Shown here one piece after another: positions 22,254 to 41,116 of a stretch of 46,185 nt of DNA (the first letter of the stretch is position 1; every line of letters starts with the position of its first letter). Position numbers and translations under genes: made by a program. Source of the DNA: a virus; the IMG/VR virus record IMGVR_UViG_3300044547_000416, positions 1 to 46,185 of that record, one strand, 5' to 3'. The notes beneath the pieces were generated by a model. That model searched no databases, was not told the DNA's origin, and saw only the letters and a list, made by a program, of their open reading frames with translations.

Positions 22254-23192
22254 ATGGTATCTGGGAAGAACAAACTAACAGTCATTAACATTTTAGACAC
22301 CGCATTGGGTGTAGGTTCATCCTTAAAGGGAAACGAACAGGCCCATCACTGTCCATTTTGCAATCACCACAAAAAGAAACTACAAGTAAACTTAGATACT
22401 CAAAGATGGCACTGCTGGGTATGTGATTCTAAAGGTAGGAGTATCCAATCCCTCCTTCGCAAACTGAATGTAGATATAAGAGACCTAAATAGATTGAAAG
22501 ATATCTATGGTGAGGATGATTATACATTAGTTGAGAAAGATGAGTATGTAGCTAAGTTACAATTACCATCAGAATTTAAACAATTACACTTTAAGCCAAA
22601 AGGATTCCAACCCGAATACAATCAAGCTATTAACTACCTTAAAGAAAGAGGAATTACCCAAGCTGATATCGTTAAATATAACATCGGATATTGTTCTGAT
22701 GGATTATACTTTGGCAGAATCATTGTACCTTCGTATGATGAGAATGGTGACTTAAATTACTTTGTAGCTCGTTCATATTACAAAGAAGAACGAATGAAGT
22801 ATAAGAATCCGCCGGTTAATAGAGATGTTATTGTGTTTGAAAATCAAATCAATTGGAATGAACCTATTACTTTAGTAGAAGGTGTGTTTGATTCATTTTC
22901 AGTTAAACGAAATTGTATTCCTTTACTTGGTAAATTCTTATTGAATAAATTAAAGAATAAGATTATAGAGAAAGGAGTTAAGGATATAACAATACTATTA
23001 GATTCAGATGCTATTGCGGATTCCACAAAGCATACTGATTATTTTATAAAGAATGGTATTAATGTAAAGAATATTATACCAAAAGGAAAGGATGCAGGAG
23101 ATATGGGATTCAAAGCAGTTAGAGAATTATTAAAAGGAGCAACACAAACTGGATGGGATGACTTAGTTCTATCCAAACTAAATAATATATGA
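22254..23192 (+). CDS. DNA primase, DnaG type
   Basis: The enzyme makes RNA primers at the replication fork. A zinc-binding domain is shown by C33-P-F-C36 and C54-W-V-C57. The TOPRIM catalytic part has the V-E209-G210 motif (TLVEGVFDSFS) and L-L-D250-S-D252. At 312 residues it is the size of T4 gp61 and lacks a helicase domain, so a separate helicase must be encoded elsewhere. It is the first gene behind a host-type promoter, and its stop overlaps the next start in ATGA (23189-23192), which couples it to the SbcCD fusion. The promoter suggests early or middle expression. Confidence 0.9.
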   Translation: MVSGKNKLTVINILDTALGVGSSLKGNEQAHHCPFCNHHKKKLQVNLDTQRWHCWVCDSKGRSIQSLLRKLNVDIRDLNRLKDIYGEDDYTLVEKDEYVAKLQLPSEFKQLHFKPKGFQPEYNQAINYLKERGITQADIVKYNIGYCSDGLYFGRIIVPSYDENGDLNYFVARSYYKEERMKYKNPPVNRDVIVFENQINWNEPITLVEGVFDSFSVKRNCIPLLGKFLLNKLKNKIIEKGVKDITILLDSDAIADSTKHTDYFIKNGINVKNIIPKGKDAGDMGFKAVRELLKGATQTGWDDLVLSKLNNI

Positions 23193-26100: not shown

Positions 26101-26332
26101 AGTGGCTCTAATTAACATATGCAACCTGCCTAGACCTAACTTCTTAGTAATCGATGAAGGGTTTGGTACATTGGATGCAGATAACCTATCATCTCTATTT
26201 ATGATGATGCAATATCTTAAAACTCAATTCGATTTCATTTGGGTTATTTCTCACTTAGAACAAATGAGAGATATTGTGGATGGACTTATTGAAATTAAAA
26301 AAATAGATGGTTTTAGTAAGATTAACTTCTAA
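23189..26332 (+). CDS. Mre11-Rad50 (gp47-gp46 / SbcD-SbcC) fusion recombination nuclease
   Basis: The N-terminal third is a calcineurin-type phosphoesterase: D11-I-H13, G-D49, G83-N-H-D86, F-H154-G and G-D188-I-H190 supply the metal ligands of the Mre11/gp47 nuclease. From about residue 375 an SMC-like ATPase starts, with Walker A A-P-N-A-Q-G-K408-S409, a long coiled coil, a zinc-hook C723-N-F-C726, a signature S959-G-M-E962 and Walker B F-L-V-I-D989-E990. In T4 the two are separate proteins that process ends for recombination-dependent replication; here they form one 1047-residue chain with no internal stop or likely second start at the joint. A terminator follows at 26353. Confidence 0.93.
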   Translation: MRLKRIYHIADIHIRNIKRHKEFREVFYSMFEEIKKRGTEDSIIYLAGDIAHAKLEMSPELVSEISWLFTECNKLCPTIVIAGNHDCNMNNSDRLDVLTPIVDALKLPNLTYLKDTQVYGIGDVDFAVFSIFDNKDNWPKANTLFGNKKIALFHGPVDNSTTDIGYVVSSRHFTTEIFDGYDLALLGDIHKRQEMISPSGCKVVYAGSLVQQNFGETLDKHGFLVWDLDTMTYEEVDIQNDYGYYTLDVDGGIVPDVTDMPLYPRLRVRITNTDTADTKRMMADITAKYGVEDFTIIRTDTFNKKKTNDREARLEVDSIADINHQNSLIGEYIERMMPFVTKEDLAGIEKINRDINSRIQPSELQRNISWKPIKFDFSNMFSYGEKNVINFDKINGLMGLFAPNAQGKSSLFDAISFCLFDKCSRAYKASAIMNNRKSDFHCQLEFSVDGVVYGIRREGRIINKGKNVKVDVDFWREGDSGRESLNGTERRDTNQVIETYVGRYEDFIMTALSLQANNALFIDKSQSERKDLMAQFMGLDIFDKLYDTATNDIKDVNALIRNFRKTDFTSELAQKENDLNSKREEYDSLDAEKLELEKRKGELDEQIINLSQQIVPIQGNLNIDTLNSKLKTIEGDLTTWGDTKSKLVEKHTEAKELVREAKEMIDSKVTINGTDIGDAQIQLNLVKGQIKDTLHQIELLESAIEHNKEKLSHLAEHEYDPNCNFCMNNVFVKDARETETKLGEQGNQLETLNILHGALINQLGELAGVEEQFRQWKKWTDENIRLIALRERLEADGKTAESRIELLQHQLETAKADIKRYNDNVETITNNTSLVNQIENIKEEKQGIETQISNVNKKMLKLMSEVGATKTYIDNMVAKMEEVKELESKNQLYTFYLDAVKKDGVPYELISKALPAIENEVNNILGQVVDFSISMDTDGKNINARIVYEDQEWALEMCSGMEKFISGLAIRVALINICNLPRPNFLVIDEGFGTLDADNLSSLFMMMQYLKTQFDFIWVISHLEQMRDIVDGLIEIKKIDGFSKINF

Positions 26333-26585: not shown

Positions 26586-29500
26586 ATGGCAAGAATTAAA
26601 AAATACTCCCCAACGATTGACCCGCATTTAAAATACTATGAAACTTTTTTAGTAGATACGGCACCCAATTCAAGATACTTTAAAATTACAGAGTTTAAAG
26701 ATACTTTTACTGGCGGTAAAAATGGATTTTTAATTGAAGGTTCTCCTCAACTTTTGGAGTCTACGGAAATTAAGATTGAAATTTTAGATGTTGAAGGAAA
26801 TCCAATTTATTTTGAACCAGGTAATGGTATACCTGAATACTATGAAGGTAATTCTAAAGTTATAGCAGTTTATGTTTATGAGGACACTCCAATAGGAACA
26901 GCTGATATTACTATATTGGGAGAATTGAAACAATACTATGATGGGGTTCAGCTAAAAGATATACCCGATGAATGGAAAGGTATTTATAATGTAAAATGGC
27001 AGAGAGATTTTAAAGTAAACAAATTACTTTCAAATGAAGAAAAAGTAAGATTTTATAAAAGACCTACCATTACTATTACTGAAATTGTTAAACCTTTATT
27101 TACAACAATTTTACAACCAACTGTATTAAATGGGTTTGTTAAAGGAACTGCAATAGCACCACCATTAGAGACGTATTTAAAAGATTGGACATTACCAACA
27201 TACTATAAACTAACGGCTGAAAATGATGGATATAACCCTTCTGTATTTTTTACAGGTTCTATGGTAGGTACAAAATTAAATTTTAGTCATCAAGTTTATG
27301 ATGATATTAAAAACTTTAATCTTCCATACACTGACCCAACATACGCTGCTGTAAATAGTTATTCACCCACTGTAGTAGAAGTATTAAACTCTACTGAAAT
27401 ATTAGTAACCCAACCATTTACGATAAATAATAAATTTGGAAATCCTCTTGTATATCCACTTCCATTGCTTTTTCCAAAAAACCCTGTACCTTATGATTAT
27501 GATGGTGATGGTATTAATGATTTAATTGGATTTACTCAACAAGCTAATGGTGCACCATTTACCGCATCTTTTATTGATACTAAAAATATTATTAATATAG
27601 CAAGTGCACTAACTGGTTCATTTGCAAAAATAGATATAAGAGAATTAACGACATTTACAGGTGATGTAGCTAGAGTTAGGATATTTAGAAAATCTCAATC
27701 AGATGTAGGAAATTACGAATTTACTCAAGAGGTTTTATTGGAATCAAATGAACTATTAGTAGATTATACTGTAGAAACAAAAAACCAAGAAAATTATGGT
27801 ATATTTACAGAACCAATTATAACTGAGTATTGGGATGCATCGGCTGGATTAACTACAACATTCAATCAAGATTATTTATACGCTTCCGTAGAATTAGATG
27901 CTGGTTCTGTACCTAAATATTTTAGTACAAAGGATACATTTACTTTAAGTGAAGGTAAGGAATATGCTTTAAGTTTTAATATTAGAAAAAACGGAATAGA
28001 TGATACAAGTTATTTAAGAGCATTTTTAAGTGGTTCAAAACAAGTAACAACAAATGGAGTAACAAAAACAATACAAATTGAGCAAGATTTTGCAAAAATA
28101 TATGCTGACCCGATTGTGTTAGAAAAAACCACATCTACCAATAATATAAAAGTACAACAAATAGATAATGCAAAACTTTATTTTGAAGTAAGAGGAAATA
28201 ATTGGTATATAGCAAATGTAAGTTTAGTTGCTGCACAAGAAACATCATTTTCTCCTGATGAAATAACATTTATACAATCAGTACCAAGAACATTAACAGC
28301 AGAAACTTTTGATTATCGTTTTGAATTTTATGATATAAATAATAACTACATACCTGTAAAAGTTGAAACTCAAAAACTTTTTACTGGTGGTAATTTACAA
28401 GCAATTAAAAAGGGTATTTTCTTTAATCCAAAAATTTTAACATTTACATTTGATTCTGCATCAAAACCAGTACCACCAACTACACAATCATTTAATGTAG
28501 AAAAGTTTTTAATTACCGGTTCTATAACTTATACATCTCAATCTTTTGATTTTAATGGTAATTTATTATCTGGATTAGATTATCTTACTGCTGAAGGAAT
28601 GCCTGGTTTATTGGATTTGTTTGACTCAGGTTCGGCATCTGATATAGATAATCCATCTATGACAGTAAATCATTTTACAGGTTCTAATCCAGATAAAACA
28701 GTCCAACTTATTAAAATTACAGGAACAACTGAAGGTTATTCAGATACAGTTACCTATGTTAGAATATTAGACGGATTTGGTGGTGTGAATCATTTGATTA
28801 GACCTTATAGAGGAACACAAATTAGAAACAGTAGTACTCAAAGTTTAGAAGTACAAGCAATTAGAATCGATGGTATAAATGATATAGAATTAAGTGCAGC
28901 ATCAAGACCTGATAAAAAATGGAATTTAATTCAACTGCATGTACTGAGCGGTTCACAACCTTATCAAAAATTTATTAATTTAGAGAAAGCAAATAGTAGC
29001 GGGTTTGTACAAGGATTAAGTGTTGGTGAATTGGGTAGTAAGGAATTAAACTTTAATGCCGTATTTAATCGTGATTCTATCAATAAAAGAATAACGGTAT
29101 ATATGATTGATTCTGCATCAGCAGCATACGATTGGGCATATAATACATCTGGTTCTGTTTTAGCATCTCAAATATTAGAAGATTTGCAAGATGGATTGGA
29201 TAGTGGTATAGTTAAATTTAATGCAGATACATTTAATATTGATTTTAGAAATAGTCTATTGTTTGCACCACCATCAGCATCAGCAACTGCATCATTCTAT
29301 ATAAGGGGTTCGAATACCCAAACAGTAACTGCATCTTTCCAAGTATTTCCATCTATGTCAATTAATGATTGGTATGAGCCTGAGTATTGGATATATTATA
29401 CTACTCAAAGTGTGGATAGTACGATATCAGTAACAGCTATTGATGAGAAAAAAAATGTTGTTAATGCTGGGGCAATCGGTTCGTATATAGGAGCTAATAA

Positions 29501-32500
29501 TAAACAAAGTAAAAATTTAACATTAACATTTACATATACTGAACCATATACTAATGCAACTGCAAATATAGATAAAACATTTACTATTGTACAAAGTGGT
29601 AAGCCTGGAGATGAAACTATAATATTTGAAGTAACCCCTTCCAATGTAATATTAAATGCAAATTCAAAAGGAACTGTATTAGATTATAAGCCATCCATTA
29701 CGGATATTAAATTAAAGCAGGGGTCTAGGTATCTATTGTTTACAGCTAGTGCTGGAAATCCTGGTAAAGGAAACGACGGTACATTCCATATAGCTCAAAA
29801 CCAAATAACATCAATAAACATAAATTCTGGTAGTGTTTACTTTAATCCATCATATACATCATCTTTAAGTGCTAGTGCAGCATCTAATTTTGTTCAATTA
29901 AGTGGTAGTATTACATATCCACTAATCATACATCCTTATTACACATCATCAATTTATACGGCAAGTGTTGTACAGCAATTTACAAAGGCTGTAGACGGAG
30001 CGCCACCAATTCAGGTAATAATAAATCCTGCAAATGTTAATTTAGGAGCAGACCAAATTGGTATTGTTAAAGATTATAATCAAGCAAATACAATAATCAA
30101 ATTAAAAGAAGGAACTGATTATTTAGTATATACAAATACTCAACAACCTGGTACTTTTAGAACATCATCGGTTACGCAAACAAATATTAGTGTATCCACA
30201 TTAACAGCAGACCCATCGGATACAACAAATTTAATTGTAAGTGGATATAGTGCTATGAATTCTAATAGTGCTAGTATTCAATATAATTTTGATGTATATC
30301 CATATTCACTTTTACCTGGTCATAGAACTGGTTCAATTGCAGTTAGTGGTTCTCAGTATTTTACAAGAACAAAAGATGGACAAACCGCAAGGAGTGTAAC
30401 TCTAACAGCAAATTCTTTAGTAATAAGTTTTGATGGAGATTCTTCAAATCCTGATCCCGGTACTATTACATTAACAGCAAAATCATTTGGAGTAACTGGT
30501 TCGGCATACTATCAATTTTTTAAAGATGGAATTTCATTAGGTGCACCGCTTACCGGCACTACAAAAAATTTAAATTCATCATATCTTCCTATTGCTAATG
30601 CTAAGTCTGTATATAAAGTTGAATTAAGAGATGGTTCTGCCACATTACCTGTTGCAGCAACTGCCGAAATTACAATAGCTGGTGTTAAGGCTGGTGGTGA
30701 TGGTTATACTGTAACTTTAACAAATGAAAATACATCTATTGTATATAAAGTATCTGGTGCAACTACAACAACGGGAACTGGTACAAGTATATTAGCAAGT
30801 AAAGGTACAACCGCATTACAACATGTATCATCATTTAGTAATCAAACATATGATAATGATGGAACTTATATAGGTTCGCTGGGACAGTATAAAGTTACAA
30901 TAGATAGTAAATCTGGTTGGTTGGCTTTAGCTGGTAGTCTTGTATCTGGAAGTACTGTACCAACTGTTTCAAATGTGGCAGTTCTTGGAGACCTATCAGG
31001 ATATACAAGTCCTAATTTATACCCTACCGCAAATATAGTTTTTAAAGTAGATGTAGAGGATGGCAGGGCAGTGTATTATAAAACAGAATCAATAGCAGTT
31101 CAATACGAAGGAAACACTGGACCTGGTATAGTAATGAGAGGGGTTTATAAAAATACAATTAACTATATTGGTAGTGTAGAGACAACAAACTATCGTAGAG
31201 ATGCAGTAATATATCCAGACCCAACAACGGTGCCTGGTGGTACAGTAACTTATTATGCAGCTGTTAGTGGTAGTGGACCTGGATTGGCAACTGGAGCTCA
31301 TGCACCAACCGCAGGTGGTAATAATGATTGGTGGCAACTTTTGGGAGACCAAGAATTTTTTGTATCTGCAAAGATTGCAATATTTGATGAATCATATGTT
31401 AAGAATACATTAAACGTTGGTACTTACGCCGATACATCTGAATTTGTAAATGTAATTATAGCTGGTGGTAGAACCGACCCATATATTGCAGTAGGACAAA
31501 GTGGAACATATGGAACGGCTGGAGGAGGATATTCTCCAAACAACCCAGCTATCATTGGATATGGTCAGAGTGGTATCTATATGGGAATATATGAAAATGG
31601 TTCTTTTGGTACAACTGGTAGATTTTCAATTGTAAATGAAGGAACTGCATCAACATCTGGATTATATTGGGATGGTAGTGTATTGACTATTAAAGGGGCT
31701 ATTAAGCAAACAGATGCTGGAGTAAATGAGCCAACATTAAAAGGAGTTTGGGCATTCGGTATTACTTACTATAATAATGATGTAGTTAGTTATGATGGAA
31801 AATCTTGGATATGTACATCTGCAACATCTCACTTTTCAACTAATAATACAAATAGTACAACTGGATATCCTGGCTCTGGTCCTTGGAGTACATATATTGA
31901 TAAAGGTGATACTGGAGCTGGTGTAGTATATAGAGGTCCATTCACAATAGGAACGGCATATAGTAGTAGTGCTGTTAGAAAAGATGTTGTACAAGGTATT
32001 GATGGAGCATACTATCTATCTAAATTAACATATATACCAACTGGCTCTGATTCAAGACCCGGAGTGGGGCAAACTGCACCAGCAGGTTCAACCGCTGGTA
32101 CATATTGGCAAACATTTGGAGCAACATTTAGTTCGGTAGCAACTGATATATTATTAGCACAAGAAGCTACAATAACAAGAGGATTAGTTATGGGTAGTGA
32201 TGTTGGTGGTATTGGTGTAATACGTTCTGTTGATGCATATTCTTTTACATCTGGTAGTGGGTTTTATATGGATAGAACTGGAATAGTTAGATTCGGAAAT
32301 CCCGTAGGTAATCAAATAAAATTTGATGGAATTGATTTCCAAATTACTGGTTCAATAAATGCAACGGATGGACAAATTGGAGATTGGGTTATTGATGAAA
32401 CTACAAGAGCATTAAGAGATAATGATTCTCAATTAATATTTGACCCAAATATTCCTGAAATACAATTTTATACTGGAAGTGGTGAAGGTAGAAGTAAAAA

Positions 32501-34145
32501 GGTAAGTATATCCCCACTAAAAGTATTATCGGATTCTGGCGGCGGTTCAAACACTGTAAATTTCACAGGTTCATATTCGCCAGCAAATCCATCAATAACA
32601 ACAAATGCAGGTGATGGGTCGCCCGTATATGTAACTAGTTATTCAACAAAAACATCGACTGGTGGTTCTTCATCAAATGGTACATTTACACCAGCTGACG
32701 CAGGTGATTATCAACTAACTATTGTTACTCCTAGTTTTGCAGTAGAAACCGGACCTGATACAATATCACATACTTCAACTCAACCAGACTTTGAAGCACC
32801 TTACGATGGATACATACATACCGGATATTCTAATGCACAACAAGCAGCTGCTTATTTATATATAGAAGCCGTAAAAGTTAGTGATAATAGTGTAGTTGGT
32901 AGTCACCTTATTGGAAGTTCTACTTCCGTTGGGGCAAAAAATGTAGCTGGCTATTGGATTGGATATTCTGGATATCTTTCTGTTACAGGCGATACATTAA
33001 TTATAGATGAATTTGGAAACGAAGTTTATGCTAGAGATATTATTAGTGGACAAAATATCACTGCATGGAATTGGAGTGATTCGTTTAGCACATATAAAGT
33101 AGAAAATGTAAGAAGTAGAACTATTGATAAAGTATTCAAAGTTTCTGCTGGCGGTAATGAAGTAAAAGTATCAGATTCGCATGGATTTTGGTTAGATGGT
33201 AACGAACAAATCAAAGCTAAAGATTTAATATCGGGTGTTAGTAAAATAAATATAAGAGATGGTAATACTATTAAATTAGTAATTGTAGATGATGTAGAAA
33301 TAATTGAGGGCGATGAAATGGTATATACATTCTCTGTACCTGATGTAAATAACTATATTTCAAATGGTATAATATCTCACAATCCAATTGGCATGACAAA
33401 CTGGGTAGAAGTACCTGAAAGTATCAACGCAGGGGGTTATGGTGGTGTGGGTGGTTATACTCAGACAATAAATATGTATATAAGTGAGGCAACTCCAGTA
33501 CAATTTAGATATAGATTTTTATATTACGCATATTCAGGAGTTCAAACTGATATAGGAGCATCTCCACTTTCTTATACCACTACCTATTATCCTTGGACAT
33601 TTGATACATGGGTTACTTCACCATCATTTGCTAGTTCTATTATAGTAAAAGCACCAACAAACTTTGTTGAAATTAATGCAGGTGGAATGCAAGTAGTATC
33701 GGATGAAAATAGATATGTTAAAATGGCAAGACAAGAAGTTGGAGTTGGAGTTTCCGATTTACTTAAAGTTTTGGGTGGAAATATTAAAACAGATACTATA
33801 TTACCAAATGTGGCAGATACAAGTACTATTGGTACAAATGCGAATCAATATGGACATGTGTATGCTAATAATTTTACTAATAATGCATCTTCAGTAAGTG
33901 CAAACGGATATACAAAATTAACAAATGGAATTATATTACAATGGGGATACCAAGCCTACACTACAACAGCAACACCTGTGGTATTTCCAATAACGTTCCC
34001 TACTGCTTGTACGTCTGTACATGTAACAACAAACAGACTTACTAATGGAGCAAATGGATATAATCATGCTGGTAGTTTAACAACAGCCGGATTTAGTGCA
34101 GTATTTGATGGAACAGGTGGATGGTGGTCGGCAATTGGATATTAA
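26586..34145 (+). CDS. Giant tail fibre / host-recognition protein with internal Hint (intein-like) domain (2519 aa)
   Basis: Residues 1-170 form an N-terminal domain that is probably the virion attachment end. D304-Y-D-G-D-G-I-N-D312 resembles a calcium-binding loop. Two related units of about 130 residues start near 1015 and 1145 (PSNVILNAN / PANVNLGAD), followed by Ig-like and other beta modules. At about 1720-1775 a W-x-Y-x-N-D-V-V-S-Y-x-G-K-S-W segment resembles chitin-binding modules (CBM5/12). A Hint domain lies at 2132-2266. The C-terminal 75 residues (NGYTKLTNGIILQWG ... WWSAIGY) are a typical fibre-tip domain. The protein should form the long receptor-binding fibre. A fibre-assembly chaperone gene follows 13 bases later. 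Confidence 0.85.
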   Translation: MARIKKYSPTIDPHLKYYETFLVDTAPNSRYFKITEFKDTFTGGKNGFLIEGSPQLLESTEIKIEILDVEGNPIYFEPGNGIPEYYEGNSKVIAVYVYEDTPIGTADITILGELKQYYDGVQLKDIPDEWKGIYNVKWQRDFKVNKLLSNEEKVRFYKRPTITITEIVKPLFTTILQPTVLNGFVKGTAIAPPLETYLKDWTLPTYYKLTAENDGYNPSVFFTGSMVGTKLNFSHQVYDDIKNFNLPYTDPTYAAVNSYSPTVVEVLNSTEILVTQPFTINNKFGNPLVYPLPLLFPKNPVPYDYDGDGINDLIGFTQQANGAPFTASFIDTKNIINIASALTGSFAKIDIRELTTFTGDVARVRIFRKSQSDVGNYEFTQEVLLESNELLVDYTVETKNQENYGIFTEPIITEYWDASAGLTTTFNQDYLYASVELDAGSVPKYFSTKDTFTLSEGKEYALSFNIRKNGIDDTSYLRAFLSGSKQVTTNGVTKTIQIEQDFAKIYADPIVLEKTTSTNNIKVQQIDNAKLYFEVRGNNWYIANVSLVAAQETSFSPDEITFIQSVPRTLTAETFDYRFEFYDINNNYIPVKVETQKLFTGGNLQAIKKGIFFNPKILTFTFDSASKPVPPTTQSFNVEKFLITGSITYTSQSFDFNGNLLSGLDYLTAEGMPGLLDLFDSGSASDIDNPSMTVNHFTGSNPDKTVQLIKITGTTEGYSDTVTYVRILDGFGGVNHLIRPYRGTQIRNSSTQSLEVQAIRIDGINDIELSAASRPDKKWNLIQLHVLSGSQPYQKFINLEKANSSGFVQGLSVGELGSKELNFNAVFNRDSINKRITVYMIDSASAAYDWAYNTSGSVLASQILEDLQDGLDSGIVKFNADTFNIDFRNSLLFAPPSASATASFYIRGSNTQTVTASFQVFPSMSINDWYEPEYWIYYTTQSVDSTISVTAIDEKKNVVNAGAIGSYIGANNKQSKNLTLTFTYTEPYTNATANIDKTFTIVQSGKPGDETIIFEVTPSNVILNANSKGTVLDYKPSITDIKLKQGSRYLLFTASAGNPGKGNDGTFHIAQNQITSININSGSVYFNPSYTSSLSASAASNFVQLSGSITYPLIIHPYYTSSIYTASVVQQFTKAVDGAPPIQVIINPANVNLGADQIGIVKDYNQANTIIKLKEGTDYLVYTNTQQPGTFRTSSVTQTNISVSTLTADPSDTTNLIVSGYSAMNSNSASIQYNFDVYPYSLLPGHRTGSIAVSGSQYFTRTKDGQTARSVTLTANSLVISFDGDSSNPDPGTITLTAKSFGVTGSAYYQFFKDGISLGAPLTGTTKNLNSSYLPIANAKSVYKVELRDGSATLPVAATAEITIAGVKAGGDGYTVTLTNENTSIVYKVSGATTTTGTGTSILASKGTTALQHVSSFSNQTYDNDGTYIGSLGQYKVTIDSKSGWLALAGSLVSGSTVPTVSNVAVLGDLSGYTSPNLYPTANIVFKVDVEDGRAVYYKTESIAVQYEGNTGPGIVMRGVYKNTINYIGSVETTNYRRDAVIYPDPTTVPGGTVTYYAAVSGSGPGLATGAHAPTAGGNNDWWQLLGDQEFFVSAKIAIFDESYVKNTLNVGTYADTSEFVNVIIAGGRTDPYIAVGQSGTYGTAGGGYSPNNPAIIGYGQSGIYMGIYENGSFGTTGRFSIVNEGTASTSGLYWDGSVLTIKGAIKQTDAGVNEPTLKGVWAFGITYYNNDVVSYDGKSWICTSATSHFSTNNTNSTTGYPGSGPWSTYIDKGDTGAGVVYRGPFTIGTAYSSSAVRKDVVQGIDGAYYLSKLTYIPTGSDSRPGVGQTAPAGSTAGTYWQTFGATFSSVATDILLAQEATITRGLVMGSDVGGIGVIRSVDAYSFTSGSGFYMDRTGIVRFGNPVGNQIKFDGIDFQITGSINATDGQIGDWVIDETTRALRDNDSQLIFDPNIPEIQFYTGSGEGRSKKVSISPLKVLSDSGGGSNTVNFTGSYSPANPSITTNAGDGSPVYVTSYSTKTSTGGSSSNGTFTPADAGDYQLTIVTPSFAVETGPDTISHTSTQPDFEAPYDGYIHTGYSNAQQAAAYLYIEAVKVSDNSVVGSHLIGSSTSVGAKNVAGYWIGYSGYLSVTGDTLIIDEFGNEVYARDIISGQNITAWNWSDSFSTYKVENVRSRTIDKVFKVSAGGNEVKVSDSHGFWLDGNEQIKAKDLISGVSKINIRDGNTIKLVIVDDVEIIEGDEMVYTFSVPDVNNYISNGIISHNPIGMTNWVEVPESINAGGYGGVGGYTQTINMYISEATPVQFRYRFLYYAYSGVQTDIGASPLSYTTTYYPWTFDTWVTSPSFASSIIVKAPTNFVEINAGGMQVVSDENRYVKMARQEVGVGVSDLLKVLGGNIKTDTILPNVADTSTIGTNANQYGHVYANNFTNNASSVSANGYTKLTNGIILQWGYQAYTTTATPVVFPITFPTACTSVHVTTNRLTNGANGYNHAGSLTTAGFSAVFDGTGGWWSAIGY
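32979..33383 (+). other. Hint / intein-like domain inside the tail fibre gene
   Basis: The 135-residue segment starts with S2132-V-T-G-D-T (intein block A, with Ser in place of Cys), contains V-S-D-S-H2199-G-F (block B His), and ends N-N-Y-I-S-N-G-I-I-S-H2265-N2266 (block G). The residue after it is Pro2267, not Cys, Ser or Thr. It has no homing endonuclease insert. By family knowledge Asn cyclisation can cut after N2266; splicing with Pro at +1 is not expected. This most resembles a bacterial intein-like domain causing self-cleavage. Confidence 0.8.
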
Positions 34146-34158
34146 AAAATAAAAATAT

Positions 34159-34530
34159 ATGATTTATTACGCAACATTTAATGAAACGGAAGACTATACT
34201 GGATTTTATACCAAAGAAATACATGGTGATAATATTCCAACCCCAAATGTAGAATTGACAGAAGCGCAATGGAAAGAAGCTATTACGGGTAGATATAAAT
34301 TAGTAGATGGAGTGCATACTCATAATCCATTCACACAGGAACAATTGGATGTCAAAGAACTATCAATAGCTAGGAGTAATAGAAACAATTTACTTAAAGA
34401 ATCCGATTGGACACAATTACCAAATAATCCACTAACCGCTGAAAAGCAAGAGGAATGGAATGTATATAGACAAAAATTAAGAGATATTCCAAAAACAATT
34501 CCATATATATTCCCAGAACCACCACTTTAA
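34159..34530 (+). CDS. Tail-fibre assembly chaperone-like protein
   Basis: The second half (residues about 75-115: RNNLLKESDWTQLPNNPLTAEKQEEWNVYRQKLRDIP) is the conserved signature of phage tail-fibre assembly chaperones (Phage_tail_APC type): R-x-x-L-L-x-x-S-D-W-T-Q, then W-x-x-Y-R-x-x-L-R-D. The first half (ITGRYKLVDG near 42-51) is a small beta domain. Such proteins fold or trimerise the fibre encoded just upstream and may stay bound to its tip. With the stop of the fibre 13 bases before its start, the two should be co-transcribed. Confidence 0.8.
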   Translation: MIYYATFNETEDYTGFYTKEIHGDNIPTPNVELTEAQWKEAITGRYKLVDGVHTHNPFTQEQLDVKELSIARSNRNNLLKESDWTQLPNNPLTAEKQEEWNVYRQKLRDIPKTIPYIFPEPPL

Positions 34531-34914: not shown

Positions 34915-37107
34915 ATGAGTAAAAAGAAATTACTGTATGTTTGTCCCCACCTTTCTACCGGCGGACAACCTCAATACACTTACAAGCAGATAAAGCAATT
35001 TATCAATGATTACCAAATAGAAGTTGTTGAAATAAACAATAGCGGTGGAACTGCGTTTGTAGTACAAAAGAATAAAATTAAAGCATTAGTTCCTGTTCAT
35101 ACATTAGGGGATAACAGAGCAGAAATAATTGATATCATTAATACTTTCAAACCTGATATTATACATTTTCAGGAGATTCCACAACATGATTTATCAACTG
35201 ATATTTTAGATAGAATATTTTCGGATAAAAGAAAATATTTTATTGTAGCATCTACACATGGGTCTTTAACAAATCCTGAAGAAATAATTTACCATCCCGA
35301 TAGATATATTTTAGTATCCGAATGGAGTAGACAAAAGTTTATTGATACTGGTGTTGAAACTGATATATGGGAATATCCAATCGAAGAATATGTGTTTGAT
35401 AAAGCAACTGCACAAAAAGAATTAGGATTTGAATCTGATTGGAAGCATGTACTTAATGTTGGATTATTTGCACCAGGTAAAAATCAAGGTGAAGTATTTG
35501 CAATAGCAAGGCAATTAGAAAAATACAAAATTAAATTTCACTTTGTAGGAAATCAAGCTGGAAACTTTGAACATTATTGGGGAGATATAATGAAATACAA
35601 ACCTGATAATTGTATTGTTTGGGGAGAAAGAAATGATGTTGATACTTTTTACGCAGCATCGGATATGTTCTACTTTAGTTCTATAATTGAATTAAATCCG
35701 TTATCAGTTAAAGAAGCACTATCATACGGACTACCATCTATATTTAGAAAGTTACCAACTTATTTAGATACATACGATAATAATCCATTGGTTACATACA
35801 TTGGTGATGATTTAAAAGTTACTAAAAAAATTATATTAGAAACTTTACAACCTGAATTCAATGAGATACCGGGTTGGTTTGTTTATGATACTATGTATGA
35901 TGATATGGTTAAGAATGCTAAAGGTGGTGAAACTTTTGTTGAGTTGGGTTCTTGGTTTGGTAAGTCTACAAATTATATGGCAACTAAAATTAAAGAATCT
36001 GGTAAGGATATAAAATTCACAACAATAGATACATTTAAAGGAACTGCAGATGAAGGGTTGCATAATACAATAGTAAATGGGTCTTTTGATGGAGATATAT
36101 TTTATGAATTTATAGATAACACAATCATATCAGATAACTACGGAACATTTGATATCATAAAAGATACATCACATAATGCTACCAACCAATTTCAAAATAA
36201 CAGCATTGATTATATAATGTTAGATGGTGGGCATAGTTATGAGGATGTAAACGAAGATATAAAACTTTGGTATAATAAAGTAAAACCGGGTGGATATATT
36301 TCTGGAGATGATTATGGTGGTAGTTTCTTTCCTGGTGTTACTAAAGCAGTTGATGAATATTTTTATAATCAATGTGAAATTGGATTTAGAACTTGGAAAA
36401 TGAAAAAACCAAGAATACAAATAAAGCATTTATTAACAAGACCTGATGATGCTAGAGAAAGAGTAAGTATTCAATCATTAAAGCAATTATCAAAATACGG
36501 AATGGATTATGTACAAATGATAAATACTCCATACGAAGGATTAGCACCTGTTGAAAATTGTAGAAGACCTGAAAATGTTAGTAAAGATAATAAGCCGGGT
36601 GAATTATATCCGGGAGCAGGTATTGGATATATTACGGGTAGACACTATGGTTGTTATCTAGCACATAGAGGAGCTTTGGAATCTATTGATGATACAAATT
36701 ATGATTATACTTTAATATTTGAAGCAGATGCTTTTATTAATGTAGGTATTGAGGAGTTTGTTGAAATAGTACATAGAGCTTGTTTCATTTCACAAAGAGA
36801 TAATGTTTATTATATAGGATTCGCAAATAATCCTTCTTGGAATAGATGGGGAGTTGATGAACTATTTGCAAAAACTGATTTTAATCAAGACCTTGCACAT
36901 TGTTATTTAATTCCAAATCGACACAAACAATTCTATATGGATAGACTGGAGGATATTGGATGGGATGTTGGTGATTTATGGTACAACCATGTATTCTATG
37001 ACCATAGACATTTGAGATATACAACTAATAAAAATTATAGTAAGCAAGCTGAGGGCTATTCTTTATTAGATGAAAAAATAAAAAGTTGGAAAGAAAATTG
37101 GAACTAA
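34915..37107 (+). CDS. Trifunctional glycosyltransferase (GT4)-methyltransferase-glycosyltransferase (GT25-like)
   Basis: Three enzyme domains follow each other. Residues 1-315 are GT-B fold, GT4-like: KKLLYVCPHLSTGGQ at the start, then NVGLFAPGKNQ, and E-L-N-P-L-S-V-K-E-A as the donor-binding ExxxxxxxE motif. Residues 335-495 are a class I methyltransferase of the Methyltransf_24 type: GGETFVELGSWFGKS and IDYIMLDGGHSYEDV. Residues 500-730 resemble LPS glycosyltransferase family 25: KHLLTRPDDARERV, G-C-Y-L-A-H-R-G-A-L-E, and L-I-F-E-A-D-A-F (metal motif near 602). Together they could build a methylated glycan, on a virion protein or the host surface. The gene has a host-type promoter, and its stop overlaps the next start (TAATG). 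Confidence 0.8.
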   Translation: MSKKKLLYVCPHLSTGGQPQYTYKQIKQFINDYQIEVVEINNSGGTAFVVQKNKIKALVPVHTLGDNRAEIIDIINTFKPDIIHFQEIPQHDLSTDILDRIFSDKRKYFIVASTHGSLTNPEEIIYHPDRYILVSEWSRQKFIDTGVETDIWEYPIEEYVFDKATAQKELGFESDWKHVLNVGLFAPGKNQGEVFAIARQLEKYKIKFHFVGNQAGNFEHYWGDIMKYKPDNCIVWGERNDVDTFYAASDMFYFSSIIELNPLSVKEALSYGLPSIFRKLPTYLDTYDNNPLVTYIGDDLKVTKKIILETLQPEFNEIPGWFVYDTMYDDMVKNAKGGETFVELGSWFGKSTNYMATKIKESGKDIKFTTIDTFKGTADEGLHNTIVNGSFDGDIFYEFIDNTIISDNYGTFDIIKDTSHNATNQFQNNSIDYIMLDGGHSYEDVNEDIKLWYNKVKPGGYISGDDYGGSFFPGVTKAVDEYFYNQCEIGFRTWKMKKPRIQIKHLLTRPDDARERVSIQSLKQLSKYGMDYVQMINTPYEGLAPVENCRRPENVSKDNKPGELYPGAGIGYITGRHYGCYLAHRGALESIDDTNYDYTLIFEADAFINVGIEEFVEIVHRACFISQRDNVYYIGFANNPSWNRWGVDELFAKTDFNQDLAHCYLIPNRHKQFYMDRLEDIGWDVGDLWYNHVFYDHRHLRYTTNKNYSKQAEGYSLLDEKIKSWKENWN

Positions 37108-38255
37108 TGATATACGATAATTTAAAAAAGAATTTAAATAACATAATACAAATAAAAAACAAAGTAATTGTACACTTTGTTAGAGGACCTTTTGTTGAAG
37201 TAAAAGGAAATACAAATGCTGAGTATCGTATTGAATTTATAGATAGAAGTACTGGAAAAGTTATTCACACTGGAAACATAAAAAATAATATGTGGAGTAA
37301 GTGTAATATAGAATATTTTGTAAATTGGCAAATAAAGATATTCGAAAATGGAAAATTGTATGAGGAACATAACTACGATGCAAAAGGTAAACGAGTTTAT
37401 ATAGCTATGGATTCCAGAGCATTGGGAGATACATTGGCATGGTTTCCGTATTTTGAAGAATTCAGAAAAAAATGGGGATGTAAATTAATAGCATCAACAT
37501 TTATGAATGATATGTTCAAAGATGAATATCCAGATATAGAATTTGTAAGTCCTGGCTCTGGTGTTGAAAATATATACGCAATGTATGGAGTTGGATTATA
37601 TTATAAAGAAAATAATGAATATAATGAATATAAAAATCCAAATAACTTTAGAGAGCAAACAATGCAAAAAATGGCATCTGATATTTTAGGATTAGAATAT
37701 AACGAAGTTAGACCAAAGATAAAAAAGAGAGATGTTAAAATAGATAAACAATTAAAGCAAGTTTGTATTGGTGTATTTGGAACGGCTCAATCTAAATTTT
37801 GGAATAACCCAACAGGATGGCAAGATGTTGTAGATTGGTTAAATGGTAGAGGCTATACAGTTAAATTAGTATCTAAAGAGGGAGATGATTATATGGGTAA
37901 CAAACTACCAACCGGAATAGTTAAACACCCAGAAGGACCATTAGAATTGGTTATGGATGAAATGAAAAAATCTAAAGCATTTATAGGAATTGGTAGTGGG
38001 TTAAGTTGGTTAAGTTGGGCATTAGATGTTCCAACTGTATTGATTAGTGGATTCTCATATGATTGGGCTGAAATGCAGGATTGTGTAAGAATTGCGGCAC
38101 CTAAAGGTAAATGTGAGGGTTGTTTTAATAGGATTAGATTAGATGCTGGTGATTGGAATTGGTGTCCTGACCATAAGGGTACTCATAAACAATTTGAATG
38201 TACAAGAACAATCACATCGGATATTGTAATAAAAGAATTAGAAAAATTCTTATAA
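37107..38255 (+). CDS. Autotransporter-heptosyltransferase-like glycosyltransferase (GT9/TibC type)
   Basis: After an N-terminal beta-rich domain (1-95), KRVYIAMDSRALGDTLAWFPYFEEF opens a GT-B fold of the GT9/TibC type. The C-terminal half has IGIGSGLSWLSWALDVPTVLISG, the donor-site pattern of heptosyltransferases. Four cysteines, C336-x2-C339-x13-C353-x11-C365, resemble the iron-binding finger of bacterial autotransporter heptosyltransferases such as TibC, which glycosylate Ser on proteins. This makes protein O-glycosylation the best guess, possibly of a virion protein. I chose ATG 37107, which overlaps the previous stop in TAATG, over a TTG at 37086 that would lengthen the overlap. Confidence 0.75.
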   Translation: MIYDNLKKNLNNIIQIKNKVIVHFVRGPFVEVKGNTNAEYRIEFIDRSTGKVIHTGNIKNNMWSKCNIEYFVNWQIKIFENGKLYEEHNYDAKGKRVYIAMDSRALGDTLAWFPYFEEFRKKWGCKLIASTFMNDMFKDEYPDIEFVSPGSGVENIYAMYGVGLYYKENNEYNEYKNPNNFREQTMQKMASDILGLEYNEVRPKIKKRDVKIDKQLKQVCIGVFGTAQSKFWNNPTGWQDVVDWLNGRGYTVKLVSKEGDDYMGNKLPTGIVKHPEGPLELVMDEMKKSKAFIGIGSGLSWLSWALDVPTVLISGFSYDWAEMQDCVRIAAPKGKCEGCFNRIRLDAGDWNWCPDHKGTHKQFECTRTITSDIVIKELEKFL

Positions 38256-38270
38256 AAATTTAAAAAGAAT

Positions 38271-38279
38271 ATACTTATA
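38271..38279 (+). promoter_or_regulatory. Candidate late promoter box, variant ATACTTATA
   Basis: ATACTTATA differs from the common ATATTTATA by one base and lies 26 bases before the ATG at 38306. The same variant precedes the gene at 41168. Confidence 0.5.
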
Positions 38280-38305
38280 TATATAAACAATAAAAAACAT
38301 AAATT

Positions 38306-38701
38306 ATGGCAGAATTGGATAACATTCCACAAACACAAACAGTGGAATTAGCACAAGTTAAATTAGATGACAGTACTTTTGAAAAAATTAAAGAGTTGAA
38401 TGCTAGAGTTCAAAGTTTACTTTTAGAAGTAGGCTCTATATACATCAGAAGAAAAGAAATGGAAGCAGAAATTCTTAGAATGGCTGATGTATTGGAAACG
38501 CATGAAAGCGAAATTAAATCATCTAACATAAAATTAAATGATATGGCATCTGAAATTGATGACACATACCCTCAAGCAAGAATTAATATTGCAGATGGTA
38601 CTGTACAATATCAACCGGGTGCACCTACTAGAAAGCAACAACAAGCTGAACAAGCACAACAACAAAATGGAGCATCTGACTTCAAAGTAGTAAAAGATTA
38701 A
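38306..38701 (+). CDS. Coiled-coil protein B, paralogue of the gene at 34584, with Gln-rich tail
   Basis: The middle of this 131-residue protein is one long charged helix ending in a short beta part, alignable with coiled-coil protein A. It differs by a 20-residue N-terminal extension and a Gln/Ala-rich C-terminal tail (RKQQQAEQAQQQNG). Predicted as a coiled-coil oligomer, function unknown. Its copy lies on the other side of the glycosylation genes, so duplication and insertion are linked in this region. Confidence 0.7.
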   Translation: MAELDNIPQTQTVELAQVKLDDSTFEKIKELNARVQSLLLEVGSIYIRRKEMEAEILRMADVLETHESEIKSSNIKLNDMASEIDDTYPQARINIADGTVQYQPGAPTRKQQQAEQAQQQNGASDFKVVKD

Positions 38702-38707
38702 TCCCAT

Positions 38708-38716
38708 ATATTTATA
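38708..38716 (+). promoter_or_regulatory. Candidate late promoter box ATATTTATA
   Basis: Exact ATATTTATA, 21 bases before the ATG at 38738. Confidence 0.5.
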
Positions 38717-38737
38717 TGGTATAAGATATATCGTATA

Positions 38738-41116
38738 ATGCAAGGATTAGCAAAATTTTTAGTAGAATCAATATTATTGGAAGCGGAATCCATAAACAAG
38801 GTAATAGTTGTTTATTCGGGCCGCTTTCAACCTTTTCATAAGGGCCATTACGCAACTTATGAAAATTTAGTACGCAAATTCGGAAAGGATAGTGTATATA
38901 TCGGAACTTCTAATGTTACCGATTCAAAAAAATCTCCATTTAATTTTAAAGAGAAAAAAACAATAATGACAAATATGTTTGGTATTCCATCAAGCAAAAT
39001 TGTCAATATCAGAAATCCATATGCACCTGAAGAAATTCTAAATAAATACGATGAAGATACAACTGGTTTAATAGTTGTAGTTGGTGAGAAAGATGAGCAA
39101 AGACTTGGTGGTAAATATTTCACACCATATAAAGGTAAAGTAACCCAACCTTATTTAGATAGAGGATATGTTTATGCAGCACCCGCAGAATCAAACCCAA
39201 TTAGTGGTACTGATGTTCGTTATTGGTTAAGCGCTGGAAGCGCTGCTGATAGAAAGAAAAACTTTACAAAAGCATATCCAAAATTTGATGAGCAAATATT
39301 CAAATTAATTACTCTTAAGTTAAAGAGCTTAAAAGAATGTATTAATGAAGAAATTAAACTAAACGTAAAAGTTGGTGATACTTTATTGATGGGTAAATTC
39401 AAAAACAAAAAAGTAGTTGTTAAATCAATTGGTGAGGATGAATGGGGAATGCCAACAATCAATGGTAAAAAAGCAGTAACATTTAGAATCCCTAAAAAAG
39501 AGAATTTAAAAGAGATGGGACTTGGTGGTGGAGCTGGTGTGGGTTTGAGTTTACCTGGTGGATATATTAATGGAGCACCTGATACTAAAGATGTTAAAAA
39601 AAATAGTAAGAAACTTAACAACAAAGGAATGAGTGGATATGATGAGGTTGATGAAGATAATATTCCTGGTGGTTTAGCAAAAGGTAAAACCCTAATTGAT
39701 TTAGCTAAAAAATGGGATTCAAAAGGATACTATGACCCAAAACAATTTGCAGAAAAATATGTAAAACCTCAATTGATGAAGGGTATTAAAGTTGAAATGG
39801 AACATACAACTGATGTTCGTATTGCAACCGAAATAGCTATGGACCATTTATGGGAAGATATCAATTATTATGAAAAGTTAGCTAAAATTGAAAAACCAAT
39901 AAAAGAATCTTTATTAACAGAAGGTGGGGCTTATGGACATATGGCACATCCATTTGATATTGAAATGGGTTTAACATTTGGTGACCTTAAACAAATAGTA
40001 GTAAGAGCACTTAATGGTGATTTGGAATTAGCAAGAGAAAAGACTGATGGACAGGCATTAGCAATTAGTTGGGTAAATGGTAGATTGGTTGCAGCTCGTA
40101 ACAAATCTCACTTAAAAGATAAAGGAGTTGGTGCTATGACAATAGGACAAGTAGCCGATAAGTTTGCTGGTAGAGGTGGATTAACCGATGCTTACAACTT
40201 CGCTATGCAAGATTTATCAAAAGCAATTGCAGCATTATCCGAACCTCAACGTAAGAAGGTTTTTAAGGATGGTAGTTCGTTTATGAATTTGGAAGTAATA
40301 TACCCAACATCCGTAAACGTAATTCCCTACAATCAACCCCTATTAGTATTTCATGGTACTTTTGATTATGATATGGCTGGTACTATAATTGGACAAAATC
40401 AAGATGCAGCAAAAGTATTAGGTGGAATGATTAAGCAAGTAAATGCACATGTTCAATCTAAATATACAATACAGGGACCTCCAATGCAAACACTCCCTAA
40501 AACCGAACATCTTTCTAAATTACAAGGAAAGTATTTGGGAATGATTTCTAAACTACAATCTGAATTTGGATTAGCTGACTCGGATGGTGTAGCAGATTAT
40601 CATCAGGCATGGTGGACAAATTTTGTAGAAAAGGGAGCAAAGAAATTGGATGCACAACAAAAGATAGGCTTAATTAAAAGATGGGCTTTTTTAGATAAAA
40701 GTTTTCGTATAGGGGATATAAAGGATGATAAGATAAGAGCTTGGGCCGAACAAACGGATAAACAAGACCAACAAAAGATATCAAAACAAAACTTAATGAG
40801 ATTTGAGGAGATATTCTTAGGCGTTGGTGCAGATGTATTATCATTTATGACATCAGTATTAACTGCAAATCCTGCAGAAGCTACTAAACAAATGAAAGCA
40901 AAATTACAAAGTACAATATCTCAAGTAAAAGCAAGTGGTGACCCTAAAAAGATTGCAAAACTTAAATTAGAATTAAGTAGGATGCAAGCTTTGGGTGGAT
41001 TTGATAAAATTGTACCAAATGAGGGATTAGTATTCGTATATGGTGGAAACACTTACAAACTAACAGGTGCATTCGCACCGCTTAATCAGATTTTAGGCAT
41101 ATTTTTTGATTCTTAA
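38738..41116 (+). CDS. Nucleotidyltransferase (NadM/cytidylyltransferase-like) fused to a DNA/RNA-ligase-like domain
   Basis: The N-terminal domain has G28-R-F-Q-P-F-H34-K-G-H37 and I155-S-G-T-D-V-R161, the two signatures of the HxGH nucleotidyltransferase superfamily (NadM, cytidylyltransferases). A middle segment (about 355-385: MEHTTDVRIATEIAMDHLWED) resembles phage DUF5661. The C-terminal half has the ligase motif K435-T-D-G438, then F-M-N-L-E-V-I-Y-P, E762-G-L-V-F and Y-K774-L-T-G, as in RNA/DNA ligases. The combination suggests nucleic-acid end repair or NAD-linked chemistry. LLE-A (13-16) at the N-terminus and LTE-G (393-396) at the module boundary fit T4-type prohead-protease sites. 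Confidence 0.75.
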   Translation: MQGLAKFLVESILLEAESINKVIVVYSGRFQPFHKGHYATYENLVRKFGKDSVYIGTSNVTDSKKSPFNFKEKKTIMTNMFGIPSSKIVNIRNPYAPEEILNKYDEDTTGLIVVVGEKDEQRLGGKYFTPYKGKVTQPYLDRGYVYAAPAESNPISGTDVRYWLSAGSAADRKKNFTKAYPKFDEQIFKLITLKLKSLKECINEEIKLNVKVGDTLLMGKFKNKKVVVKSIGEDEWGMPTINGKKAVTFRIPKKENLKEMGLGGGAGVGLSLPGGYINGAPDTKDVKKNSKKLNNKGMSGYDEVDEDNIPGGLAKGKTLIDLAKKWDSKGYYDPKQFAEKYVKPQLMKGIKVEMEHTTDVRIATEIAMDHLWEDINYYEKLAKIEKPIKESLLTEGGAYGHMAHPFDIEMGLTFGDLKQIVVRALNGDLELAREKTDGQALAISWVNGRLVAARNKSHLKDKGVGAMTIGQVADKFAGRGGLTDAYNFAMQDLSKAIAALSEPQRKKVFKDGSSFMNLEVIYPTSVNVIPYNQPLLVFHGTFDYDMAGTIIGQNQDAAKVLGGMIKQVNAHVQSKYTIQGPPMQTLPKTEHLSKLQGKYLGMISKLQSEFGLADSDGVADYHQAWWTNFVEKGAKKLDAQQKIGLIKRWAFLDKSFRIGDIKDDKIRAWAEQTDKQDQQKISKQNLMRFEEIFLGVGADVLSFMTSVLTANPAEATKQMKAKLQSTISQVKASGDPKKIAKLKLELSRMQALGGFDKIVPNEGLVFVYGGNTYKLTGAFAPLNQILGIFFDS

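Follow-up and report, generated by a model that had tools for sequence, protein, structure and literature searches.

The fibre locus examined here raises the question of what an intein-like domain does near the receptor-binding end of a phage tail fibre when the residues for cutting are in place and the residue for rejoining is missing. The window, that is the whole stretch of DNA analyzed (46,185 nucleotides; IMG/VR record IMGVR_UViG_3300044547_000416), belongs to a T4-like phage and encodes a giant tail fibre with a gp53-like domain at its C-terminal end (residues 2444-2519; PF21882, E 5.5e-12). The N-terminal 300 aa of this fibre matched 53 loci, wholly or in part. Two contigs, L001 and L004, share 12480 and 9790 bp, respectively, of identical sequence with the window, making an assembly slip unlikely, though the three may represent one virus population. 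The features on which the analysis rests are as follows:

26586..34145, plus strand: giant tail fibre gene, 2519 aa (open reading frame and Pfam match)
32559..32978, plus strand: upstream flank, residues 1992-2131, predicted beta strands leading into the Hint (AF2, flank profile)
32979..33383, plus strand: Hint domain, residues 2132-2266, 135 aa (profiles, PDB matches, AF2 model)
32979..32981, plus strand: Ser2132, Hint residue 1, the expected acyl-shift nucleophile (Ser or Cys in 30 distinct Hints)
33171..33182, plus strand: block B S-D-S-H, residues 2196-2199, Hint Ser65 to His68 (His2199 codon at 33180-33182)
33327..33329, plus strand: Thr2248, where aligned inteins carry the block-F Asp (Thr, Ser or Asn in 30 Hints)
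33378..33383, plus strand: His2265-Asn2266, C-terminal cyclisation pair (codons 33378-33380 and 33381-33383)
33384..33386, plus strand: Pro2267, position +1 (tallied across 30 Hints)
33384..33788, plus strand: downstream flank, residues 2267-2401, bearing the NFVEINAGGMQVVSD motif (35 loci found by this domain; empty-site fibre L157)
34159..34530, plus strand: tail fibre assembly chaperone gene (PF16778, E 4.2e-15; phrog_8716, E 4.1e-14)

Identity of the Hint domain

The first-pass annotation had placed a Hint domain with Ser1 and Pro(+1) inside the fibre at 32979-33386, and our analysis agrees, the end at 33386 taking in the Pro codon. PF14890 (Intein_splicing) matched a 160-aa stretch with E 4.7e-8 at 33.4 bits, slightly below its cut-off of 35.8, NCBIfam TIGR01443 (intein_Cterm) scored 20.6 bits (cut-off 15.6), and PDB inteins matched the window Hint with a best E of 3.3e-5. 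The top structural match of the AF2 model of the Hint was the SspDnaB mini-intein (Z 21.1), and the model also matched the Clostridium BIL 2lwy (Z 19.6, rmsd 1.9 over 133 residues) and Hedgehog (Z 19.1). Profiles, sequence matches and model concur that the Hint domain at residues 2132-2266 is real, and at 135 aa it is too short for a homing endonuclease. The upstream flank was modelled with pLDDT of 80-93 per block (model residues 41 to 140).

The closest sequence matches of the window Hint and of the L002 Hint, which is 96% identical to it, are inteins, not BILs. Searching the 'phages' collection with the L002 Hint at a limit of 10 returned terminase inteins (E 3e-9), and the window Hint (P0002) at E 0.01 gave no Hint match there; as both versions matched the TerL of Corynebacterium phage C3PO in a two-sequence database (2e-13 and 1e-14), we attribute this null result to search settings. 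The mini-inteins of C3PO TerL and Planktothrix phage PaV-LD DnaB are ~27-29% identical to the fibre Hint and, like SspDnaB, have the same fold, but they reside in enzymes, whereas the window Hint resides in a fibre tip and is without a +1 nucleophile. An initial scan of the genome-contig collection detected no Hint loci; a scan with alignment A1 detected 15, in records that are all archaeal by title (haloarchaea plus a Diapherotrites MAG), and most of these match weakly at the C-terminal intein motif. The only matches to the fibre stretch of L054, which carries a Cys1 Hint, were four records, all RNR genes from two Vibrio phages, and in another reading frame of L068 there is a weak match to part of the Hint (E 0.023). 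The open-licence literature searched named inteins in terminase, RNR and polymerase genes and no Hint inside a tail fibre.

At the ends of the insert we found neither a direct repeat nor a clear composition break. An inverted repeat (32948-32961/33380-33393; 14 nt, 86%) lies close to both junctions and is probably due to chance.

Cutting residues and the residue after the Hint

The comparison set consisted of 30 distinct fibre Hints falling into 13 clusters at 60% identity, with 22% for the lowest pair, and detection was biased towards intact Hints. Residue 1 is Ser in 24 and Cys in 6 of these Hints, and Ser65, the block-B His68, His134 and Asn135 are invariant in all 30, although the mean alignment column is variable (1.65 bits, 26 Hints). 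The free variation of catalytic residues that the first-pass annotation had named as speaking against self-cutting is thus not what the relatives display. Such conservation also argues against a catalytically idle Hint that decorates the tip, either structurally or facing the receptor, since decoration needs none of these residues; we consider this explanation unlikely, even though the Hint sits in an exchangeable tip region and fibres exist with and without it (6 label changes on a tree of 28 distinct fibres). The dN/dS of the Hint between the window and L018 was 0.25, a value based on small counts (4 and 4).

The claim that all main intein blocks are present held for SVTGDT, VSDSHGF and NGIISHN and failed for block F, which is incomplete: Thr2248 and Asn2255 replace the Asp and His of the aligned PDB inteins. 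The block-F Asp is absent from all 30 Hints, and the block-F His occurs in 10 of them, in a column that falls under a search pattern permitting N, H or V. At the Asp position (117) we found Thr in 19, Ser in 5 and Asn in 6 Hints, with Thr/Ser accompanying Ser1 and Asn accompanying Cys1, such that all 24 Ser1 Hints carry a hydroxyl residue there.

Position +1 is Pro in 8 Hints, Val in 5, Thr in 4, Ser, Ala and Ile in 3 each, Met in 2, and Asp and Phe in 1 each. Ser, Thr or Cys therefore occupies +1 in 7/30 (23.3%) compared with 23.5% in the flanking background, giving no indication that a splicing nucleophile is selected for. The expectation that the window fibre does not splice in the ordinary way stands, given its Pro at +1. 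Nevertheless, the window's closest relatives L002 and L003 carry Ser at +1 (the nearest relative, L018, is on the same contig as L002), as do L020 and L024, and the seven Hints with Ser or Thr at +1, L002/L003 included, could splice like inteins.

The junctions of the window and L002 differ solely by this Ser codon, raising the possibility that the window Hint is a selfish mini-intein in decay, its +1 nucleophile having been lost recently by a one-codon deletion of the Ser of L002/L003. The close sequence similarity to inteins of terminases (E 3e-9 between the L002 Hint and C3PO terminase) and the patchy distribution of the Hint would suit such an origin. However, most Hints (23/30) have a non-nucleophile at +1, and the more distant L108 reads HN-PIGATS, resembling HN-PIGMTN of the window, so that, judged by eye, Ser probably arose later than Pro. 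In addition, none of the 30 Hints is degenerate, though detection leans to intact ones. We regard recent decay as quite improbable, and the candidate scheme in which Ser+1 is ancestral and the window holds a broken intein was dropped because most relatives have Pro or another residue at +1.

Insertion site in the distal fibre domain

Searching with the downstream domain alone found 35 loci, of which 33 cover the junction; 32 of these carry a Hint and one, L157, is empty. The comparison with homologous fibres lacking the insert, proposed earlier, thus yielded one clear empty site among 33 junctions. L157 aligns through the insertion site, which in its model, of middling confidence (pLDDT 71), corresponds to a predicted beta-hairpin turn between strands 121-127 and 135-142. 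The interrupted domain had no PDB match at Foldseek E <= 0.001, and its VIA matches were weak, none exceeding Z 6.4; they included jelly-roll and carbohydrate-binding folds and extended over both halves of the site. The Hint site probably lies inside one beta-sandwich; given the weak matches and the pLDDT, we consider a position inside one domain likely and not proven.

Other flanks were less informative. At the limit applied, the upstream-flank profile matched 0/39 of the N-terminal relatives that lack a Hint. When the flanks of L020 and L024 were joined, they aligned across the junction to the Hint-less L052 and L067 (27-31% identity), but the downstream half contributes most of the score (for L020 against L052, 73.9 bits for the joined flanks and 70.1 for the downstream part alone), and L052 and L067 were set behind L157 as empty sites. 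The joined flanks of the window fibre (L016), L018, L025 and L045 matched Hint-less fibres downstream of the junction only. In the 'phages' collection the 252 aa upstream of the Hint had no match, and the 253-aa C-terminal piece matched 32 records, below 60% identity, two of which, on inspection, gave no information on the Hint.

These findings do not support the earlier proposal that cleavage after Asn2266 releases the 253 residues that follow it as a free tip. The alignment of L157 through the site, the predicted hairpin turn and the matches spanning both halves suggest that the C-terminal piece would probably stay docked; it is more likely that cutting would nick the tip and set the Hint free.

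The same hairpin bears on whether splicing persists, with, once both ends are activated, the amino end of the C-terminal piece, or the Ser/Thr at +1 in relatives, attacking the ester and rejoining the fibre minus the Hint. Since a short turn closes the site in an existing Hint-less fibre, the ligated fibre would be expected to fold, and the hairpin would keep the C-terminal piece near; L018, L020 and L024 have Ser+1. On the other hand, the +1 nucleophile is at background frequency, the block-F Asp is missing throughout, and a Pro at +1 would have to attack as a secondary amine. For A-type BILs, splicing without a +1 nucleophile, with cleavage dominant, is described in PMC4031507, and inability to ligate the flanks in PMC7765530. 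On balance, we assign persisting splicing a low probability.

Proposed self-processing and known systems

That the cutting residues are intact and the rejoining residue is missing is common to the related fibres and suggests self-cutting during assembly or use. We therefore favour, with somewhat better than even confidence, an autoprocessing, A-type-BIL-like Hint inserted at the beta-hairpin tip of a distal fibre beta-domain, as sequence and models indicate. Ser2132 would take over the upstream peptide bond by an N-to-O acyl shift to form a hydrolysable ester, and Asn2266, aided by His2265, would cyclise and cut ahead of Pro2267. This would yield a fibre that is nicked in a single surface hairpin but whose halves stay together through the fold, plus a liberated Hint; any rejoining would be minor at most. 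The simplest role would be in maturing the receptor-binding tip, a step resembling removal of the S74 chaperone.

The ester at residue 1 might instead be discharged onto another fibre chain or the receptor, attaching the phage covalently until the His-Asn cut frees the joint, which we consider very improbable; block-F Thr/Ser would then be a possible relay, and the reaction a phage counterpart of Hedgehog chemistry. We consider it highly improbable that, by a Hedgehog-like logic, the ester is passed to a nucleophile of a second fibre chain or of the host surface to leave a covalent bond. Closeness of the Hint to the receptor-binding end, the conserved residue-1 nucleophile and Thr/Ser at position 117 of all Ser1 members fit such transfer, but there is no known acceptor, the conserved C-terminal His-Asn indicates cutting, and the Pfam scan identified no region of the fibre as lipid- or sterol-binding. 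Hedgehog Hog has a sterol-recognition region after its Hint, where the window has a fibre domain.

The favoured self-cutting Hint most resembles type A BILs, with which it shares the fold, Ser/Cys1, the block-B His, the final His-Asn, the absence of a +1 nucleophile (in the window and 23/30 Hints) and a position in a variable region of a non-conserved protein, here the exchangeable tips. It differs in its placement in a phage tail fibre hairpin, in Pro at +1 in 8/30, in residue 1 being mostly Ser, in Thr/Ser/Asn for the block-F Asp in 30/30, and in sometimes occurring as two in tandem at this site (9 contigs). By its sequence, this is the A-type BIL pattern in a phage fibre. Class 1 inteins are inserted at a conserved site of a conserved enzyme, and block-F Asp and His are usual in them, not universal. 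The window Hint instead lies in a fibre hairpin, a variable linker, and has Thr and Asn in block F and Pro in place of the +1 Cys/Ser/Thr, which 7/30 relatives possess. Class 3 inteins, as described in PMC4031507, have Cys at block F:4 and no nucleophile at residue 1; the window has Ser1, and Thr at F:4 (position equated by eye). Hints ending in HN, as here, also occur in tail-region proteins of Erwinia phage pEa_SNUABM_5 (QQO90250) and Phage NCTB (BN7874_132/_135), but only 3 to 10 residues follow these C-terminal Hints, whereas in the window 253 residues of tip follow.

Peptidase_S74 is a self-processing module at fibre ends (an intramolecular chaperone) and a different family from Hint. It occurs in 6/9 Hint-fibre ends scanned (L095, L096, L099, L101, L108 and L111), and the window fibre (P0001) had no PF13884 match in the Pfam scan. 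If the Hints cut, they would be a second self-processing module besides S74, at times in the same chain, and this phage group would process the receptor-binding ends of its fibres by intein chemistry. A-type BILs would thereby gain a clear, testable setting, the fibre tip of a purifiable virion, and caution would be due in annotating such fibres as splicing 'intein-containing' proteins.

The fibre gene and its Hint domain

The record of 46,185 bases derives from a T4-like phage, as indicated by a T4-type portal (PF07230, E 1.9e-65); its terminase is nearest to that of Flavobacterium phage immuto (57%), and baseplate wedge, primase and SbcCD-like genes are also encoded. A single 1047-aa frame at 23189-26332 joins SbcD-like (metallophosphoesterase) and SbcC-like (AAA/SMC) parts, resembling a fused T4 gp47-gp46. 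The fibre locus comprises:

26586-34145, + strand: giant fibre gene, 2519 residues, gp53-like C-terminus
directly after the fibre gene: fibre assembly chaperone gene

Beside the fibre, positions 34915-41116 hold sugar-related genes, namely a fused glycosyltransferase-methyltransferase, a cytidylyltransferase-like protein and a weak heptosyltransferase match slightly below the cut-off. Fibre residues 1722-1767 give a weak, sub-cut-off match to the carbohydrate-binding CBM_5_12 (19.8 of 26.2 bits).

The Hint domain proposed in the first-pass annotation was borne out at residues 2132-2266; it starts with Ser, has blocks A, B and G, and is followed by Pro at position +1. The accompanying claim that all main intein blocks are present held for A, B and G and failed for block F, which is incomplete, carrying Thr and Asn at the positions of Asp and His in aligned PDB inteins; a passage of PMC7765530 describes Asp and His as usual in block F of inteins. 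Pfam and NCBIfam intein profiles, PDB inteins and an AlphaFold2 model agree on the Hint identity. The model, for which the window was aligned with 18 relatives (19 sequences in all), has a mean pLDDT of 79, near 90 in the Hint. It best matches the mini-intein of SspDnaB, at Z 21.1 and an rmsd of 1.9 over 136; other leading matches are a bacterial intein-like domain (BIL), BIL2 of Tetrahymena (Z 20.3), a Clostridium BIL (19.6) and Hedgehog (19.1). Phage enzymes are well-known carriers of inteins, and automatic database annotation of Hints in phage proteins exists (e.g. 'Hint domain containing protein', uncultured Caudovirales phages); our literature search found no paper on a Hint within a tail fibre.

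Conserved residues and the residue after Asn

The N-terminal 300 residues of the fibre, a query independent of the Hint, matched 53 loci, 14 with a Hint; since the fibre is cut before its end in 13 and ends in short frames in 3 more, absence is meaningful only for the others. When eight aligned Hints served as the query, 47 loci were retrieved, each necessarily containing a Hint. The domain downstream of the Hint, also a Hint-blind query, gave 35 loci, many of them contigs already met in the other searches; the junction is covered in 33, with a Hint in 32 and none in one (L157), while L155 and L166 begin past it. The comparison covered 30 distinct full fibre Hints (26 plus 4 from the downstream-domain search); the Hint of L098, which is partial, the leading member of the L078 tandem and any Hint in a small protein beside the fibre, such as that of L101, were excluded. 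At 60% identity the 30 group into 13 clusters, and the most divergent pair shares 22%.

Of the 30 Hints, 24 start with Ser and the other 6 with Cys; Cys1 Hints occur in L054, L056, L058, L113, L116 and L117. Among the 135 columns, nine do not vary (V2, S65, H68, V115, N125, Y126, I131, H134, N135). N125, Y126 and I131 are not independent evidence because they lie within the search pattern that yielded 17 of the 30 Hints; H68, H134 and N135 fall outside it. Position 117, aligned with the block-F Asp of inteins, is T in 19, S in 5 and N in 6, with Thr/Ser in all 24 Ser1 Hints and Asn in all 6 Cys1 Hints, a pairing that may reflect shared ancestry because all Cys1 Hints form one cluster. Between the window and L018, a related locus, dN/dS is 0.25 in the Hint (from only 4 and 4 changes), 0.18 in residues 1-1900 and 0.53-0.77 in flanks and tip; the downstream flank and tip (33384-34142), at 0.53-0.61, exceed both Hint and shaft.

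Residue +1 varies (P8 V5 T4 S3 A3 I3 M2 D1 F1). Ser/Thr/Cys account for 7/30 (23.3%) versus 23.5% in the fibre sequence around, and Pro is enriched (8/30 versus 3.5% expected; binomial p 6e-6, relatedness ignored), occurring in 4 of the 13 clusters. The window, L001 and L004 read NGIISHN-PIGMTNW; L002 and L003, 96% identical to the window over a 160-residue stretch, read NGIISHN-S-PMGMTNW, and the junction DNA differs from that of the window by one whole codon. Given that the more distant L108 (HN-PIGATS) and L025 (HN-PSYW) also have HN-P, Pro right behind Asn looks older than Ser+1, judged by eye from few sequences and no rooted tree.

Insertion site and distribution

In the Hint-less L157 frame, 18 residues separate the upstream domain (1141-1247, E 3.5e-5) from the downstream domain (1266-1376, E 2e-21), and the alignment is continuous through the site. 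In its AlphaFold2 model (pLDDT 71 overall, about 81-88 near the site), strands 121-127 and 135-142 border a turn at the Hint position of other fibres; in the window model the Hint (model residues 141-275) is bordered by strands 132-137 and 280-285. All 50 structural matches listed for L157 begin no later than residue 37 and extend at least to 215, reaching both halves, as known from first and last aligned residues only and with Z at most 6.4; Foldseek gave no match to this model at E <= 0.001. With moderate confidence, the models place the Hint as an interruption of a single beta-sandwich at a hairpin tip. The joined flanks of L020 and L024 align over the junction with Hint-less L052 and L067 (27-31%), the score lying mostly downstream, and those of the window fibre match Hint-less fibres only in the downstream part.

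Tandem Hints occupy the same fibre site in nine contigs (L078-L086, 29.6 to 270.9 kb); a Cys1 type (HN followed by V) precedes a Ser1 type (HN followed by D), with seven residues between them, as in the L078 fibre frame:

residues 1843-1993: first Hint
residues 2001-2143: second Hint

L101 (whose ORF recurs in L152 and L155), L156 and L158 encode, next to the fibre, a small protein with a Cys1 Hint at its end and 8 to 19 residues past HN. Comparable C-terminal Hints, with 3 to 10 residues past HN, are encoded by Erwinia phage pEa_SNUABM_5 and Phage NCTB; the annotation of these proteins is tail fibre or intein domain protein. Flank profiles of Ser1 fibres found no match in L054, L056 and L058, which suggests at least two insertion contexts. 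Placing the Hint label on a tree built from 28 distinct fibre bases (9 with and 19 without a Hint) requires 6 changes, versus a mean of 7.9 for shuffled labels (37/500 shuffles as low as 6), and the Hint seems to move together with exchangeable tips. Peptidase_S74, an intramolecular chaperone at fibre ends, was detected in 6 of 9 Hint-fibre ends scanned (L095, L096, L099, L101, L108, L111) and not in L020, L054 or L090.

Predicted self-cutting of the fibre

In the Hints, Ser/Cys1 and block B, which serve the N-terminal acyl shift, are preserved, as is the His-Asn for C-terminal Asn cyclisation; the features that couple these steps to splicing, the +1 nucleophile and the block-F Asp, are not. 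In this they are like type A BILs, which a section of PMC4031507 describes as having C-terminal His-Asn without a +1 nucleophile and yielding dominantly cleavage products, with some splicing possible through attack by a free amino end; a passage of PMC7765530 calls them unable to ligate. Given this likeness, self-cutting is expected. The Hint would cut itself free at one end or both, leaving a tip that would be nicked and still docked. Asn before Pro is barred from the common deamidation route and can still cleave, and therefore Pro at +1 would favour a clean cut. By analogy with Peptidase_S74, we infer that the cut may serve maturation of the fibre tip.
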